A stretch of 64,000 bases of DNA, from NCBI GenBank assembly GCA_000227505.4, contig AGIF02000001.1, positions 1,446,035 to 1,510,034 on the forward strand, in the 5' to 3' direction. A program made the translations under genes and the position numbers. Under the pieces are notes generated by a model. That model saw nothing but the letters and a program-made list of their open reading frames with translations. It made no database searches and was not told the DNA's origin. The DNA is from a gamma proteobacterium HIMB55. Its GTDB lineage: Bacteria; Pseudomonadota; Gammaproteobacteria; Pseudomonadales; Halieaceae. Shown here in pieces: positions 54,169-64,000 of this stretch (positions are counted from its first letter, which is position 1; the number at the start of each line of letters is the position of its first letter).

Positions 54169-55569
54169 GTGAACGACGACATACAAGCAAAGCTGAGGGA
54201 ACTCCCCTCAGTCAGCGTCGTACTCGATGAGATGGCTGATGATATCACTCAGCACGGGCACCAAGCTGTCACCAAGGCAGTGCGGGCTCACCTGTCGCTC
54301 GTTCGAGAACAACTACAGCTAGGAGCGATAGCGGACGTGGTCACAGACAGCGTTCTGTCTGCGGTTCGGCAAGCGCTCAACGGCTTAAATCATTCCTCGC
54401 TTGTCCCCGTATTCAACCTCACGGGAATCGTCCTTCACAGCAACTTGGGTCGAGCCACGCTCGCTGAATCAGCGATCACTGCAATGGCCGAAGTCGCGTC
54501 GGGTGCATCTACCCTCGAATACGACATCGCCGAGGGCAAACGTGGCGACCGGGACAGTCACATTGAAGCCATCCTATGCGAACTCACGGGGGCAGAAGCC
54601 GCTACCGTGGTAAACAACAACGCCGCTGCCGTTTTGCTTACGTTAAATACACTCGCGTTGAACAAATCTGTGCCCGTTTCGCGCGGTGAGCTGGTGGAAA
54701 TTGGTGGTTCATTTCGTGTTCCCGACATAATGAGCCGCTCAGGCTGTCGACTCGTTGAAGTGGGTACAACAAACCGCACGCATTTGGCCGATTATGCAGA
54801 CGCTATAGACGCCGATACTGCGTTACTGATGCGCGTACATACCAGCAACTACCGCATCGAAGGCTTCACCAAAGCGGTGCCTGAAAGCGAGCTCGCTCAT
54901 TTGGCTGCGCAGCATGAAATCCCATTTATCGTTGATATGGGGTGCGGCAACTTGATCGACGTAAAAAAGCTTGGGCTGCCCCATGAAGCCACCGCCCAAG
55001 ACACCCTGCGCAACGGCGCCGATCTCGTCTTATTCAGTGGCGACAAGTTACTCGGCGGTCCTCAGGCCGGCATTATTGCAGGTAAGAAATCGCTGGTTGC
55101 GCAAATCAAGAAGAACCCCATCAAGCGTGCTTTACGGCTAGACAAAGTGACGCTGGCGGCGTTGGAAGCAACACTACAGCTTTATCGCAATCCCGAGGCC
55201 CTCATCTCCCAACTACCAACACTTCGATTGCTCACGCGCAGCGAAGCCGATATTCAGCTTCAGGCCGAGCGATTATGTGATCCCGTAACGAGTGCATTGG
55301 ACAAGAACTTCTCCGTAGAGGTTGCCCGCGTTTCAAGCCAAATAGGCAGTGGCTCCTTCCCTGTCGAGGTACTCCCCAGTGCAGGACTCTCGATCGCATC
55401 CAAAAATGGCGAAGACGCTGAACTGCGCGCGCTCGATCGGCGCCTGCATGAGCTACCCAAGCCCATCATCGGGCGAATCAGCAACGGCGCGTTGATACTG
55501 GACCTTAGGTGCCTGGAGTCAGACCACGAACCTCAATTCCTCGAGCAGTTTAAAGATCTCACGCTGTGA
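54169..55569 (+). CDS. selA: L-seryl-tRNA(Sec) selenium transferase
   Basis: A 466-residue PLP enzyme that converts seryl-tRNA(Sec) to selenocysteyl-tRNA(Sec) using selenophosphate. The PLP-binding lysine is K293 in LFSGDKLLGGPQAG, matching K295 in Escherichia coli. Conserved segments NLTGIVLHSNLGRA and VVNNNAAAVLL are present. The GTG start at 54169 has GGGGGA about eight bases upstream. The stop overlaps the GTG of selB by four bases (GTGA). The length is normal (463 in Escherichia coli). No frame damage was seen. Confidence 0.97.
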   Translation: MNDDIQAKLRELPSVSVVLDEMADDITQHGHQAVTKAVRAHLSLVREQLQLGAIADVVTDSVLSAVRQALNGLNHSSLVPVFNLTGIVLHSNLGRATLAESAITAMAEVASGASTLEYDIAEGKRGDRDSHIEAILCELTGAEAATVVNNNAAAVLLTLNTLALNKSVPVSRGELVEIGGSFRVPDIMSRSGCRLVEVGTTNRTHLADYADAIDADTALLMRVHTSNYRIEGFTKAVPESELAHLAAQHEIPFIVDMGCGNLIDVKKLGLPHEATAQDTLRNGADLVLFSGDKLLGGPQAGIIAGKKSLVAQIKKNPIKRALRLDKVTLAALEATLQLYRNPEALISQLPTLRLLTRSEADIQLQAERLCDPVTSALDKNFSVEVARVSSQIGSGSFPVEVLPSAGLSIASKNGEDAELRALDRRLHELPKPIIGRISNGALILDLRCLESDHEPQFLEQFKDLTL

Positions 55570-57551
55570 TCATCGCAACAGCAGGACATGTTGATCACGG
55601 CAAGACGTCGCTGGTCAAAGCGCTCACCGGTATCGATACTGACACGCTTGCCGAGGAGAAGGCCCGCGGCCTGACCATAAATCTCGGTTATGCCTACTTG
55701 CCTACAGACACGGGTAAACCGATCGGCTTTATTGATGTCCCCGGGCATCACCGCTTCATTAACAATATGATTGCTGGCGCCTCCAGCATTGATCGCGCCT
55801 TACTGATCGTTGCTGCCGATGATGGCGTCATGCCGCAGACACGTGAACACTTAGATGTACTGATGCTCTTGGGAGTTCGGCAGATCGATATCGTCATCAC
55901 TAAAATCGACCGCGTCTCGGAGATCCAAGTTGCCTCAGTATGTTCTGCGTCCAAGTCCCTAATTCTCGAGGAACTTGGCACAGAGCCTCGTGTTTTCCAT
56001 GTCTCGAATACAACTGGCAAAGGCATCGATGGCTTACGTACCCACCTTTTTGACTGCAACATCGACGTAGAGAAAAAGAAAACCGCTGACGGCGGAGCGC
56101 ACGGGTTTCGCCTGTCGATCGATCGACGCTTTCATGTCAAAGGTGCGGGCGTGGTAGTCACAGGTACCGCAAGTGCTGGCAGGGTTTGTGTCGGCGATAC
56201 GCTGCGCTTGCTGCCTCGAGGCGTCGATGTGCGCGTCAAGGAAGTGCGCGCAAATGACGTCAAAGACGAAACCGCGAGCGCCGGCCAACGGGTAGCACTC
56301 TGTATATCGGGAAAGGTCGAACTCACCGACATCGACCGCGGCGATCTTTTAGTCGATCCCGACTTCTGTGATGTGTCTGAGAGAATCGACGTTTCTCTAA
56401 AGCTTTTGCCGAGACTATCTCGTCCGCTCAAGCATCTGACACCTGTGAAAGTGCACATTGGCGCAAAACGACTCGCCGCACAGCTGGCGCTTATTAATAA
56501 TCAAACAAGTAAGTTAAGTCCGGGAGAGTCGAGCAAAGCGCAATTGATACTCCAAGAGGATCTTTGCGCTACCCACGGCGAACGTTTTGTCATTCGCGAC
56601 GACTCCGAAATGGAAACCCTCGGTGGCGGTAAGGTTCTTGATCCGATCGGCCCCAAATATGGGAAGTCCAAAACTGACCGTCTCGAATGGCTCAGTGCGC
56701 TGGAACACGCCGACATCGCCCTGACAGCGAATGCGCTTATTCAGCAAGGCCACTGCGTCGATTTTGAACGGTTGACGACCTGCTTCAACCGGAAAGATTT
56801 GATGCCATCGACCCTGACACCAGAGGACTGCGTCAGCTTCCAAGCAGGTGGGAAACGTTGGATTACAAAGAAGTCCAACCTGGCAAAAACAAGGAAGTCA
56901 CTGGTGGACGCCGTTCAACGTAGTGAGGAAGTTGGCAGCACACCGACGTGTGACGCGGTGACTCATCAATCAGCGATCACCAACGCAGATACGGGGCGCA
57001 AACAACCCGGCATCATCAAGGACAAATTACTCGCACTAGCTGGACGCAGTACCCACCCCGCGCTCGCAGAAGCGACGCTGGCTATTCTAGTAAAACAGGG
57101 CAAGCTGGCGAACGCAGACGGTAGAATCAGGCGACCCAGCAGTCTCGATGCGCCCAATCCGCACGATGCTCTGTGGCAATCATTTGAGCACGCGCTTCTG
57201 ACTGCCGGTGTGAACGTTCCCGTGATTTCAGAAGCGAGATCTCAAGCAAGACTCAGTGATGTCGACATGAAAATCGCCATCAAACTAGGCCGCGAGCGTG
57301 GGCTCTTACATCGCGTAAATGCAGAGCGATTCATATTGACTCAAACGCTCATCAAGTTTGCAAAAGCGGCCGAAAAGACCGTTGAGAGTGAACCCTTGTC
57401 AGTCGTTGCGTTTAAAAACCAGCTCGGTATTGGGCGCAAACTGGCCATCGACATACTCGAGTATTTTGACGGTATTGGCTTTACACGTCGAAACGGAGAT
57501 CAACGGACAATCGTCAATAGAGGGGTTATAGAAAAACGCTTCGTTACCTAG
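55566..57551 (+). CDS. selB: Selenocysteine-specific elongation factor
   Basis: A 661-residue GTPase that brings selenocysteyl-tRNA to ribosomes paused at UGA next to a SECIS. G1 is GHVDHGKTS (residue 7), G3 is DVPGHHRF (near residue 58) and G4 is TKID (near residue 115). Domains II and III follow. The C-terminal winged-helix region that binds the SECIS extends from about residue 390; the last modules are seen around [10 protein letters not shown] and [16 protein letters not shown]. It is slightly longer than the Escherichia coli protein (614) because of the C-terminal half. It is translationally coupled to selA. Confidence 0.97.
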
Positions 57552-57603: not shown

Positions 57604-57697
57604 GGAAGAGCGACATCCCCGGTGGGGTGCCTGGTCTTCAAAACCAGTGAGGTGCTGAGACAGCGCCTGGTGGGTTCGACTCCTACCTCTTCCGCCA
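57604..57697 (+). tRNA. selC: tRNA-Sec (TCA), unusual 12-bp acceptor/T arm
   Basis: A 94-base selenocysteine tRNA with an encoded CCA, 52 bases after selB. The anticodon stem CTGGT/ACCAG encloses CTTCAAA, giving anticodon TCA. The D stem has six pairs (CATCCC with GGGGTG). The long variable arm has a 7-bp stem (AGGTGCT/AGCGCCT) and the T loop is TTCGACT, all tRNA-Sec hallmarks. The acceptor pairs seven bases (GGAAGAG with CTCTTCC) and the T stem five (GTGGG with CCTAC), giving 12 stacked pairs. Escherichia coli selC has eight plus five. The discriminator is G. Confidence 0.97.
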
Positions 57698-57889
57698 CAA
57701 TTTGATTAAACCAGCCTCTCGCCTCCTTTCAGAGCTTCGTCATTAAAACCAACTACACTCACTTTTGTGCCGCAGATCCATCTAGCCCTCACCGCAGCCA
57801 CTCCAATGATCAAATAAAGCGCTGAGACCTCTGTTGTTTGCTGTGAGATTGCTCTAGGTTATGGGCCTAAGATGTTTGGGGGGTTTAGC
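57698..57889 (+). other. Interval between tRNA-Sec and the nitroreductase gene
   Basis: No further gene is visible in these 192 bases. They should contain the promoter of the nitroreductase gene. The interval has no obvious SECIS or riboswitch. Confidence 0.5.
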
Positions 57890-58567
57890 ATGCAGTATGA
57901 CGACGTGGTTTTAGGCCGACGGAGCATTCGGGGTTACAAGCCGGATCCAGTTCCCGAGTCCCTGATAAAAGAAGTCTTAGCACTGGCTATGCGCTCGCCC
58001 TCCTCTATGAATACGCAACCCTGGAACTTCACGGTCGTAACCGGCGAAGTGTTGGATCGTATCCGCAAGGGAAACACCGAGCGTAATTTAGCGGGTATTC
58101 CCCACTCGCGTGAATTCCGAATCGGGTCTCCGTTCGCCGGGCAACACAGAGACCGGCAAGTGGGGGTAGCGAAACAGTTGTTTGCGGCCATGGACATTGC
58201 GCGAGAAGATGCCGAAAAACGTCAAGATTGGGTGCTCCGCGGGTTTAGACAGTTTGATGCACCTGTCTGCATCATCATTACCTACGATGCCGTGCTGGCA
58301 GACAGTGACGACACAGCCTTTGACTGCGGCGCGGTCACCACGGCGCTGGTCAACGCAGCTTGGTCTAGAGGTCTCGGAGCAGTCATCAATAGCCAAGGCA
58401 TTATGCAGTCCCCAGTTGTGCGCGAACACGCCAACATTGCTGATGATCAGGTGATCATGAAGGCTGTGGCGCTTGGCTGGCCTGATGACTCATTCCCCGC
58501 CAATGCAGTCGTATCGGAGCGCAAAACGGTTGATGAAGCAGCCACGTTTTTGGGATTTTCTGGGTAA
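57890..58567 (+). CDS. Nitroreductase-family protein
   Basis: A 225-residue FMN-dependent enzyme. I place the start at ATG 57890 (MQYDDVVLGRRSIRGY), preceded by a GGGGGG-containing ribosome site; an ATG six codons upstream precedes that site. The FMN motif RSIRGYKPDPVPESLI is followed by SPSSMNTQPWNF (near residue 40), QRRSR-free linker segments, and VNAAWSRGLGAVINSQG (near residue 160). It resembles the gene at 45634. No selenoprotein link is evident from sequence. Confidence 0.9.
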   Translation: MQYDDVVLGRRSIRGYKPDPVPESLIKEVLALAMRSPSSMNTQPWNFTVVTGEVLDRIRKGNTERNLAGIPHSREFRIGSPFAGQHRDRQVGVAKQLFAAMDIAREDAEKRQDWVLRGFRQFDAPVCIIITYDAVLADSDDTAFDCGAVTTALVNAAWSRGLGAVINSQGIMQSPVVREHANIADDQVIMKAVALGWPDDSFPANAVVSERKTVDEAATFLGFSG

Positions 58568-59327: not shown

Positions 59328-62465
<3,138 letters not shown>

Positions 62466-63128: not shown

Positions 63129-64000
63129 ATGAAAGCTGAGCGCGATGAACTGGGATTTGATGCGCCTGCCCCCTTGGGGCATCCGGTGCGTGCAAGCATG
63201 CCCGAGCAACATGCCACGGGTCCCCAAATGGGAGAACGTCTCCCTGACTTCAGCGTAAACGACGCCTACGGGAATCGTGTTAACTTCCATGTAGATCGCG
63301 GTGACAGCAAGGCCGCGCTTGTATTCTATCGCTCCGCCGTTTGGTGACCCCCCTGCTGGACGCAGCTAGGTGAGTTGCGAGATTCTTACGCGAAGTTTGA
63401 AGCTGCTGGCATCAAGCTATACGCGCTGTCGTACGACGATCAGGAAACCTTAGCTGAATTTGCCGAAAATCAGCGCATTCCCTACACCCTGCTCTCGGAT
63501 ACGCGCTCGGCGGTTATCAAGCAGTATGGCCTGCTCAACGAGCAGCTAACGGAGGCAGACGGGCCGCTGTACGGAATTCCCTACCCGGGCGTTTACGTGT
63601 GTGACGAACAGGGCGTCGTAACGTCTAAGTTTTTCCACGACTCTTACAAAAAGCGCGAAAGCCCTGAAATGCTGATTGATGCGGCGCTTGGTAAAATTCA
63701 AATCGATGAGTCGGCGCCTAAAGTATCATCCACGGATGGCGGTATTGAAATCACGGCCGCGCTACATGGCGGTAACGGCAGCCTGCGCCAAGGCATTGTA
63801 AGACAGCTTGTCGTGTCCTTTGATTTACCCCAGGGACTGCATATTTACGGTGAGCCAGTGCCTAAAGGCCTGACAGCAACACATATCGAAGTTAAAGGCC
63901 CCGATGGTCTTGTTTTGCTGCCGATGCAGTCGCCTGCCACCCACTCCCTTCATCTCGCTTCGATCGGTGAGACACTTGAAGTCTGGAGTGGTCGGGTGGA
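63129..64000 (+). CDS. Selenocysteine-containing redoxin (in-frame UGA read as Sec; 3' end outside window)
   Basis: An AhpC/TSA-like thioredoxin-fold protein. From ATG 63129 the frame reads to a UGA at 63345-63347 and then continues with family-conserved sequence and no other stop to the window edge. The residue at the UGA is position 73 in ALVFYRSAVW-U-PPC. Homologues there have W-C-P-Y-C, so UGA replaces the attacking cysteine and C76 is the resolving one. Downstream are QLGELRDSYAKFEAAG, KLYALSYDD and TLLSDTRSAVIKQYG, typical of peroxiredoxin-like redoxins. After a linker (near residue 205) a DsbD-alpha-like domain begins (LVVSFDLPQGLHIYGEPVP). The start is uncertain (TTG at 63054 is an alternative). 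It lies 5.6 kb after tRNA-Sec. Confidence 0.9.
63361..63379 (+). promoter_or_regulatory. Bacterial SECIS-like hairpin in the redoxin mRNA
   Basis: A hairpin with a 7-bp stem (CGCAGCU with AGUUGCG, including one G-U pair) and a 5-nt loop AGGUG begins 14 bases after the UGA. The loop lies at +21 to +25 from the UGA. Escherichia coli fdhF has a similar hairpin whose loop begins AGGU, and its G and U contact SelB. Distance and loop both fit bacterial SECIS rules. Confidence 0.8.

Follow-up and report, generated by a model that had tools for sequence, protein, structure and literature searches.

The window analysed here is a stretch of 64,000 nucleotides from the genome of the gammaproteobacterium HIMB55 (contig AGIF02000001.1, positions 1,446,035 to 1,510,034 of the forward strand), and near its end the frame of a redoxin gene runs through a TGA codon at 63345–63347. 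The question raised by this locus is whether that codon specifies selenocysteine (Sec) and, if it does, what chemistry the resulting protein would carry out. The gene lies on the plus strand and occupies 63129–64000 of the window (residues 1–290 of 402); the ATG at 63129 matches the start in most relatives. When TGA is read as U, the product (P0002) has 402 residues with Sec at residue 73, and its frame closes at a TGA at 64335–64337, beyond the window end (14335–14337 of L009, a 20-kb genomic locus that takes in the end of the window; the whole genome, G000, is one contig of 2.74 Mb). The AhpC/TSA domain (PF00578; residues 35–165, 63231–63623, plus strand; 99.4 bits, cut-off 26) is matched in one stretch across the TGA, and the frame has no further stop between this codon and the window end, in agreement with the initial annotation, which had seen one redoxin frame on both sides of the UGA. 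Under translation table 11 the locus reads as a 97-residue ORF with a TTG start (72 residues counted from the ATG) followed by a 320-residue ORF, also with a TTG start; annotation without awareness of Sec would probably cut the gene into two.

The genome encodes the complete bacterial Sec set (SelA, SelB, SelD, and tRNA-Sec). Three of its genes lie in the same window, 5–9 kb upstream of the redoxin gene and on the plus strand: selA, for L-seryl-tRNA(Sec) selenium transferase (54169–55569; TIGR00474, 580.6 bits, cut-off 267.9), selB, for the Sec-specific elongation factor (55566–57551; TIGR00475, 389.7 bits, cut-off 242.25), and selC, for tRNA-Sec with anticodon TCA (57604–57697; Rfam RF01852, 72.5 bits, and ARAGORN). 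selD is located elsewhere (G000:C1:983776-984717, 405.8 bits). Across 140 genomes of the same family, a tRNA-Sec search at E ≤ 0.001 was unspecific (140/140 genomes) and Rfam's own cut-off was passed by 57, so genes were counted at 64 bits or more, above a gap reaching down to about 49 bits, a threshold that was set after the list had been viewed; 43 of the 140 genomes then have a tRNA-Sec. It is present in 17 of the 18 genomes that bear the redoxin and in 26 of the 122 others (Fisher p 1.9e-9, kinship ignored), the one exception being an assembly that is 83% complete (G076). The genomes behind the other redoxin loci, at least two of which are also among the same-family genomes, have a tRNA-Sec in 13 of 16 cases and no clear one in the other three. 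In four of the 18 (G000, G059, G088, and G092) tRNA-Sec and redoxin share a contig at a distance of about 2–6 kb; in HTCC2080 (L018) selB, tRNA-Sec, the redoxin, and a second redoxin (see below) succeed one another within 6.1 kb, and in G056, an assembly of 20 contigs, tRNA-Sec and redoxin are on separate contigs.

Twenty nucleotides after the UGA, the transcript could form a bSECIS-like hairpin, CGCAGCU[AGGUG]AGUUGCG (63361–63379, plus strand). Rules published for bSECIS elements call for a loop of 3–9 nt, a stem of 4–16 bp, a G in the first two loop positions, a spacing of 16–37 nt, and a minimum free energy of −7.5 kcal/mol or lower (PMC13188914), and the hairpin in the window, with its 5-nt loop AGGUG, 7 bp, 20-nt spacing, and −7.9 kcal/mol, lies within all of these constraints. 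An equally stable hairpin that also qualifies occurs at 16 of the 763 TGA sites of L009, the codon 73 site included. When the stem is taken as eight pairs, 93.2% of cells are paired in 24 distinct relatives, vs. 24–48% when it is slid. Covariation in the stem is weak, with a double change at one pair only, in two sequences, and as high a value is reached in 52 of 500 shuffles when changed cells are counted and in 297 of 500 when changed pairs are counted; because covariation alone is unconvincing, the case for a SECIS element is built on the published rules, on conservation, and on the suppression of synonymous change. In 27 genes the synonymous ratio falls to 0.496 at codons 72–82, the lowest of 392 windows along the gene (0.917 overall), and codons ACG78 and GAG82 are fixed in 27/27. 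The best uninterrupted hairpin falls short of −7.5 kcal/mol in eight of 32 loci: in six (L020, L021, L022, L023, L024, and L039) the uninterrupted stem has −4.1 kcal/mol, in L038 it has −6.7 kcal/mol, and in L019, where an N stands in the stem, −2.0 kcal/mol.

Relatives were sought by several routes. A scan of GTDB species genomes with six peptides, one of them WCPPCWTQ and so presumably able to find a site coded with Cys as well, gave 27 loci from genomes titled Halieaceae, Luminiphilus, K189A, other Gammaproteobacteria, Deltaproteobacteria, Myxococcales, and Myxococcota. The two-domain protein (its C-terminal domain is described below) or clear fragments of it were found in 18 of the 140 family genomes, the remaining matches of that search being weaker single-domain redoxins, with TGA in some and without it in others. 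The 117 loci pooled and made distinct (tblastn E ≤ 1e-50) represent 39 genes; codon 73 is included in 38 of these, and in each of the 38 it is TGA, with conserved in-frame flanks on both sides. The C-x4-C pair of the C-terminal domain is present in 37 of the 39; the other two (L038 and L057) are fragments that end before it. Overlapping samples around the window's genome, drawn from its order (390 genomes) and class (369), both at E ≤ 1e-40, and from its phylum (398 at E ≤ 1e-20), gave two-domain matches in 5, 1, and 1 genomes, respectively, with the window's own counted each time and one TGA in each match; the phylum sample gave 10 further matches, all single-domain, none with TGA and one with TAA. 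In 329 genomes drawn from the phylum to which G882 belongs (L026 comes from G882, which is titled Myxococcales), 35 matches were obtained, and all 33 at E ≤ 1e-80 have exactly one TGA and no other stop, its position having been read in 10 of them and the other 23 being judged by TGA count alone; 32 of the 33 span both domains. G890, the genome of L036, holds three two-domain profile matches with one TGA each. In L031 (and in L054, apparently the same gene) the tail beyond a TAG near the C-terminus has diverged, as though this end of the gene were decaying. Viral contigs yielded no relative.

Cysteine does occur at this position in 12 single-domain relatives read from other genomes of the window's family (L058–L069; WCPYC in 11, WCPFC in one), and the GTDB scan, the 140 family genomes, the order, class, and phylum samples, and the 329 genomes of the G882 phylum yielded no two-domain protein with Cys there. 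The Cys homologues that the initial annotation had proposed as a check thus exist for the single-domain redoxins but not, as far as searched, for the two-domain protein. Since all close relatives found that cover the site keep the same stop codon, the two-domain protein looks, by sequence comparison, like a family of enzymes in which selenium is used without exception.

The same data bear on whether the UGA is decoded at all. Its decoding as Sec in a U73-x-x-C76 site, the central proposal of the initial annotation, is strongly supported by the Sec machinery, the TGA kept in 38/38 genes, the bSECIS-like hairpin with its synonymous suppression, and the co-occurrence with tRNA-Sec. A UGA that is instead a real stop, whether between two separate proteins, in a gene undergoing decay, or through a sequencing error, is exceedingly improbable. 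UGA does serve as a normal stop here (it ends 15 of the 37 mechanically called ORFs of at least 250 residues in the window), and the relative L031 has its further TAG close to the C-terminus; against this, the TGA stands at the same codon in every covering orthologue with flanks conserved on both sides, and the Sec machinery is present in the genome. The orthologues likewise rule out chance or a sequencing error at 63345–63347, an error that the initial annotation had named as fatal to its proposal, as the source of the TGA, and these genes together with the count of TGA-terminated ORFs led to the rejection of a pseudogene and of a change of genetic code.

The C-terminal part of the protein matches the DsbD-alpha-like DsbD_N family (PF11412; residues 225–340, 63801–64000 on the plus strand and continuing past the window) at 36.0 bits against a cut-off of 25, so the DsbD-alpha-like extension noted at the outset holds up. 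The orthologue L013 matches at 31.8 bits, and at E ≤ 0.01 the profile is matched by 18 of the 19 members of the alignment, in which the window copy is shortened. Modelled alone, the C-terminal domain of L013 has a pLDDT of 88.9, its top Foldseek match is 3pfu (E 8.4e-6), and of its 11 matches at E ≤ 0.001, 10 are to chains from DsbD entries and one is to the ScsB N-terminal domain; TM-scores to DsbD-alpha are moderate (0.44–0.49 by query length), and a PDB sequence search with the C-terminal profile returned nothing at E ≤ 1. On the strength of this model, the domain is predicted to fold like DsbD-alpha. Its conserved pair, C325-x4-C330, lies beyond the window end and is kept in 31/31 loci that are long enough; the only thiols or selenols that all aligned full-length members share are those at U73, C76, and this pair, and L026, L033, and L036 have no others. 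The immunoglobulin-fold alpha domain of DsbD transfers electrons from one thioredoxin-fold partner to another, and its redox Cys pair sits on a beta-hairpin (PMC7347389). A domain used for docking or structure only, with C-x4-C as a structural disulfide or metal site, would be compatible with a fold match that is no better than moderate, but we consider it quite improbable: the pair is invariant while the other cysteines vary among the eight proteins compared, and in DsbD-alpha the two beta-hairpin cysteines are the redox site (PMC7347389).

DsbD-alpha is periplasmic, whereas P0002 carries no export signal by hydropathy scan. A plain Kyte-Doolittle scan found neither a membrane helix nor a hydrophobic N-terminus in P0002, the best 19-residue value being 0.99 and values in the first 60 residues staying below 0; in the orthologue L021 a stretch close to the C-terminus is borderline hydrophobic (1.63). 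The last 45 residues are strongly basic, with 14 Lys/Arg and 2 Asp/Glu in P0002 and 9–16 Lys/Arg in the seven orthologues counted.

The model of the L013 orthologue, which is 74% identical to P0002, has a Prx/ResA-like N-terminal domain with Foldseek matches to Prx, Bcp, and ResA structures, and P0002 has the feature that defines a Prx-like thiol:disulfide oxidoreductase, a PF00578 domain with a UxxC site, whose second residue is Cys76 (63354–63356, plus strand). The initial annotation had left the choice between a peroxidase and a disulfide reductase. As a selenoprotein peroxidase, the enzyme would reduce hydroperoxides with Sec73, resolve with Cys76, and regenerate the site through the C-terminal dithiol. 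The fold would suit this, as would the closest solved sequences, which are peroxiredoxins of the Bcp/PrxQ type, and the best NCBIfam match, thioredoxin-dependent thiol peroxidase, which at 59.6 against 140 is below its cut-off (no NCBIfam model reaches cut-off). In the alignment to 2cx3, however, it is C76 that takes the place of the Prx cysteine, and U73 stands opposite a Ser. Peroxiredoxins carry the motif PxxxTxxC. The redoxin has RS[AV]VWUPPC instead in 32/32 covering loci, Ser standing where the motif has Pro, and Sec where it has Thr. Sec peroxiredoxins have moreover been described as TxxU and Prx-like selenoproteins as UxxC (PMC1088965). Because the Prx cysteine is matched by C76 rather than U73, and PxxxTxxC is absent, disulfide exchange is likelier than peroxide reduction; the peroxidase half of the earlier proposal is weakened, and a peroxidase now appears unlikely, though less so than a purely structural C-terminal domain. 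The sequence comparisons favor a thiol-disulfide oxidoreductase that has another redox site in the same chain.

It is therefore this enzyme that we regard as the probable product: a 402-residue selenoprotein in which a U73-P-P-C76 thiol-disulfide oxidoreductase exchanges electrons in cis with C325-x4-C330. SelB, Sec-tRNA-Sec, and the hairpin would insert Sec at UGA 63345. Sec73 would attack a disulfide or another oxidized thiol, and Cys76 would resolve the Sec73 intermediate as a selenenylsulfide; the C325-x4-C330 pair of the DsbD-alpha-like domain would then swap electrons with U73/C76 of the same chain, an exchange modelled on that between DsbD-alpha and its thioredoxin-fold partners. The protein would probably work in the cytoplasm, since neither a signal peptide nor a membrane helix is apparent from the hydropathy scan, and may be kept near the membrane by its basic C-terminal tail, with cytosolic thioredoxin as a candidate electron donor.

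The redoxin gene does not stand alone. Just beyond the window end, and tail to tail with it, a second redoxin gene with an in-frame TGA (P0003; L009:14471-15244, minus strand; site HWUPYC) encodes two hydrophobic segments before the redoxin domain. Relatives of P0003 at E ≤ 1e-20 occur in 33 of the 140 family genomes, and each of the best 30 matches of that search, its own gene included, has at least one TGA. Both redoxins are found in 16 family genomes, and in 13 of these the genes are adjacent and convergent. The P0003 hairpin (−6.1 kcal/mol) misses the energy rule, and a clear tRNA-Sec is absent from six of the 33 genomes with P0003 relatives. A third PF00578 match with an in-frame TGA (L008; G000:C1:302700-302915, minus strand) has the site FWUPPC, a hairpin of −9.2 kcal/mol and, by eye, hydrophobic stretches after the redoxin domain. 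On the other side of the redoxin, the gene at 57872–58567 (nitroreductase-like by eye) has relatives that are 94–97% identical beside the redoxin in L013–L016 and L034, where the redoxins are 73–74% identical, and a long minus-strand ORF resembling beta-galactosidase by eye (59328–62423) lies between that gene and the redoxin. No common Pfam family marks a shared upstream partner, except two Polyketide_cyc2 matches, among one upstream ORF each from L018, L019, L021, L025–L028, L032, L035, and L036.

Parts of this design have precedents. The Prx-like UxxC family was listed as already known in 2005 (PMC1088965), and both selenoproteins of this kind and Prx-like fusions are on record (PMC2398784; reviewed in PMC9312934 and PMC13188914). 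With the Prx-like selenoproteins of the Sargasso Sea and GOS surveys, P0002 shares a PF00578-type domain, UxxC, UGA-encoded Sec, and occurrence in marine bacteria (PMC1088965; PMC2398784; PMC13188914), but P0002 carries in addition a DsbD-alpha-like domain with C-x4-C, and whereas Prx-like 1 has 2,740 Cys homologues in the GOS table (PMC2398784), the searches above found no Cys counterpart of the fusion. Unknown_3 is likewise a Prx-like UxxC selenoprotein with an extra domain holding conserved Cys; as compared by its published description, it has three conserved Cys including CxxC, unlike the C-x4-C pair of P0002 (PMC2398784). The resemblance to the DsbD alpha domain extends to the PF11412 match, the fold, and two conserved cysteines near the domain end, but their spacing is x4 rather than the x5 of C103/C109 in E. 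coli DsbD (PMC7347389), and P0002 differs from whole DsbD in lacking the eight-helix membrane domain (by hydropathy and Pfam) and any visible export signal. SelL-related redox proteins (NF040769) have a related redoxin domain, which all 19 alignment members match at E ≤ 0.001, but P0002 itself scores 34.9 bits against a cut-off of 120. TsoB (NF045694, rhodanese/DsbD fusion-like, UxxxxU) is also a DsbD-type fusion selenoprotein with an x4-spaced pair (PMC13188914); it differs in being a rhodanese with Sec in that pair, and P0002, a redoxin, has no NF045694 match at E ≤ 0.1. No redoxin–DsbD_N selenoprotein appears among the table entries consulted in a 2026 review (PMC13188914), nor was one found in a literature search that covered mostly open-access work, including the text of the GOS report. 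What appears new is the apparently Sec-only two-domain fusion and, in the window's family, also its tail-to-tail second TGA redoxin.

A wider reading is possible, but we hold it only tentatively: that this is an obligate-Sec family, common to marine Halieaceae-type bacteria and Myxococcota, in which a UxxC redoxin located in the cytoplasm and a dithiol domain of the DsbD-alpha type, joined in one chain, form a self-contained two-site electron relay that never occurs with Cys, and whose members in Halieaceae-type genomes would cooperate with a second Sec redoxin, bound to the membrane and encoded by the convergent neighbouring gene. Cys homologues are said to be numerous for nearly every selenoprotein, a property that prediction methods use, and the authors of deep-Sep state that selenoproteins without them may be filtered out (PMC12013277). 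The family described here brings the DsbD-alpha fold into an apparently cytoplasmic protein, and with no Cys form of the two-domain protein in the searched data, though its redoxin domain has Cys relatives, it offers a natural case in which to ask why Sec has not been replaced.
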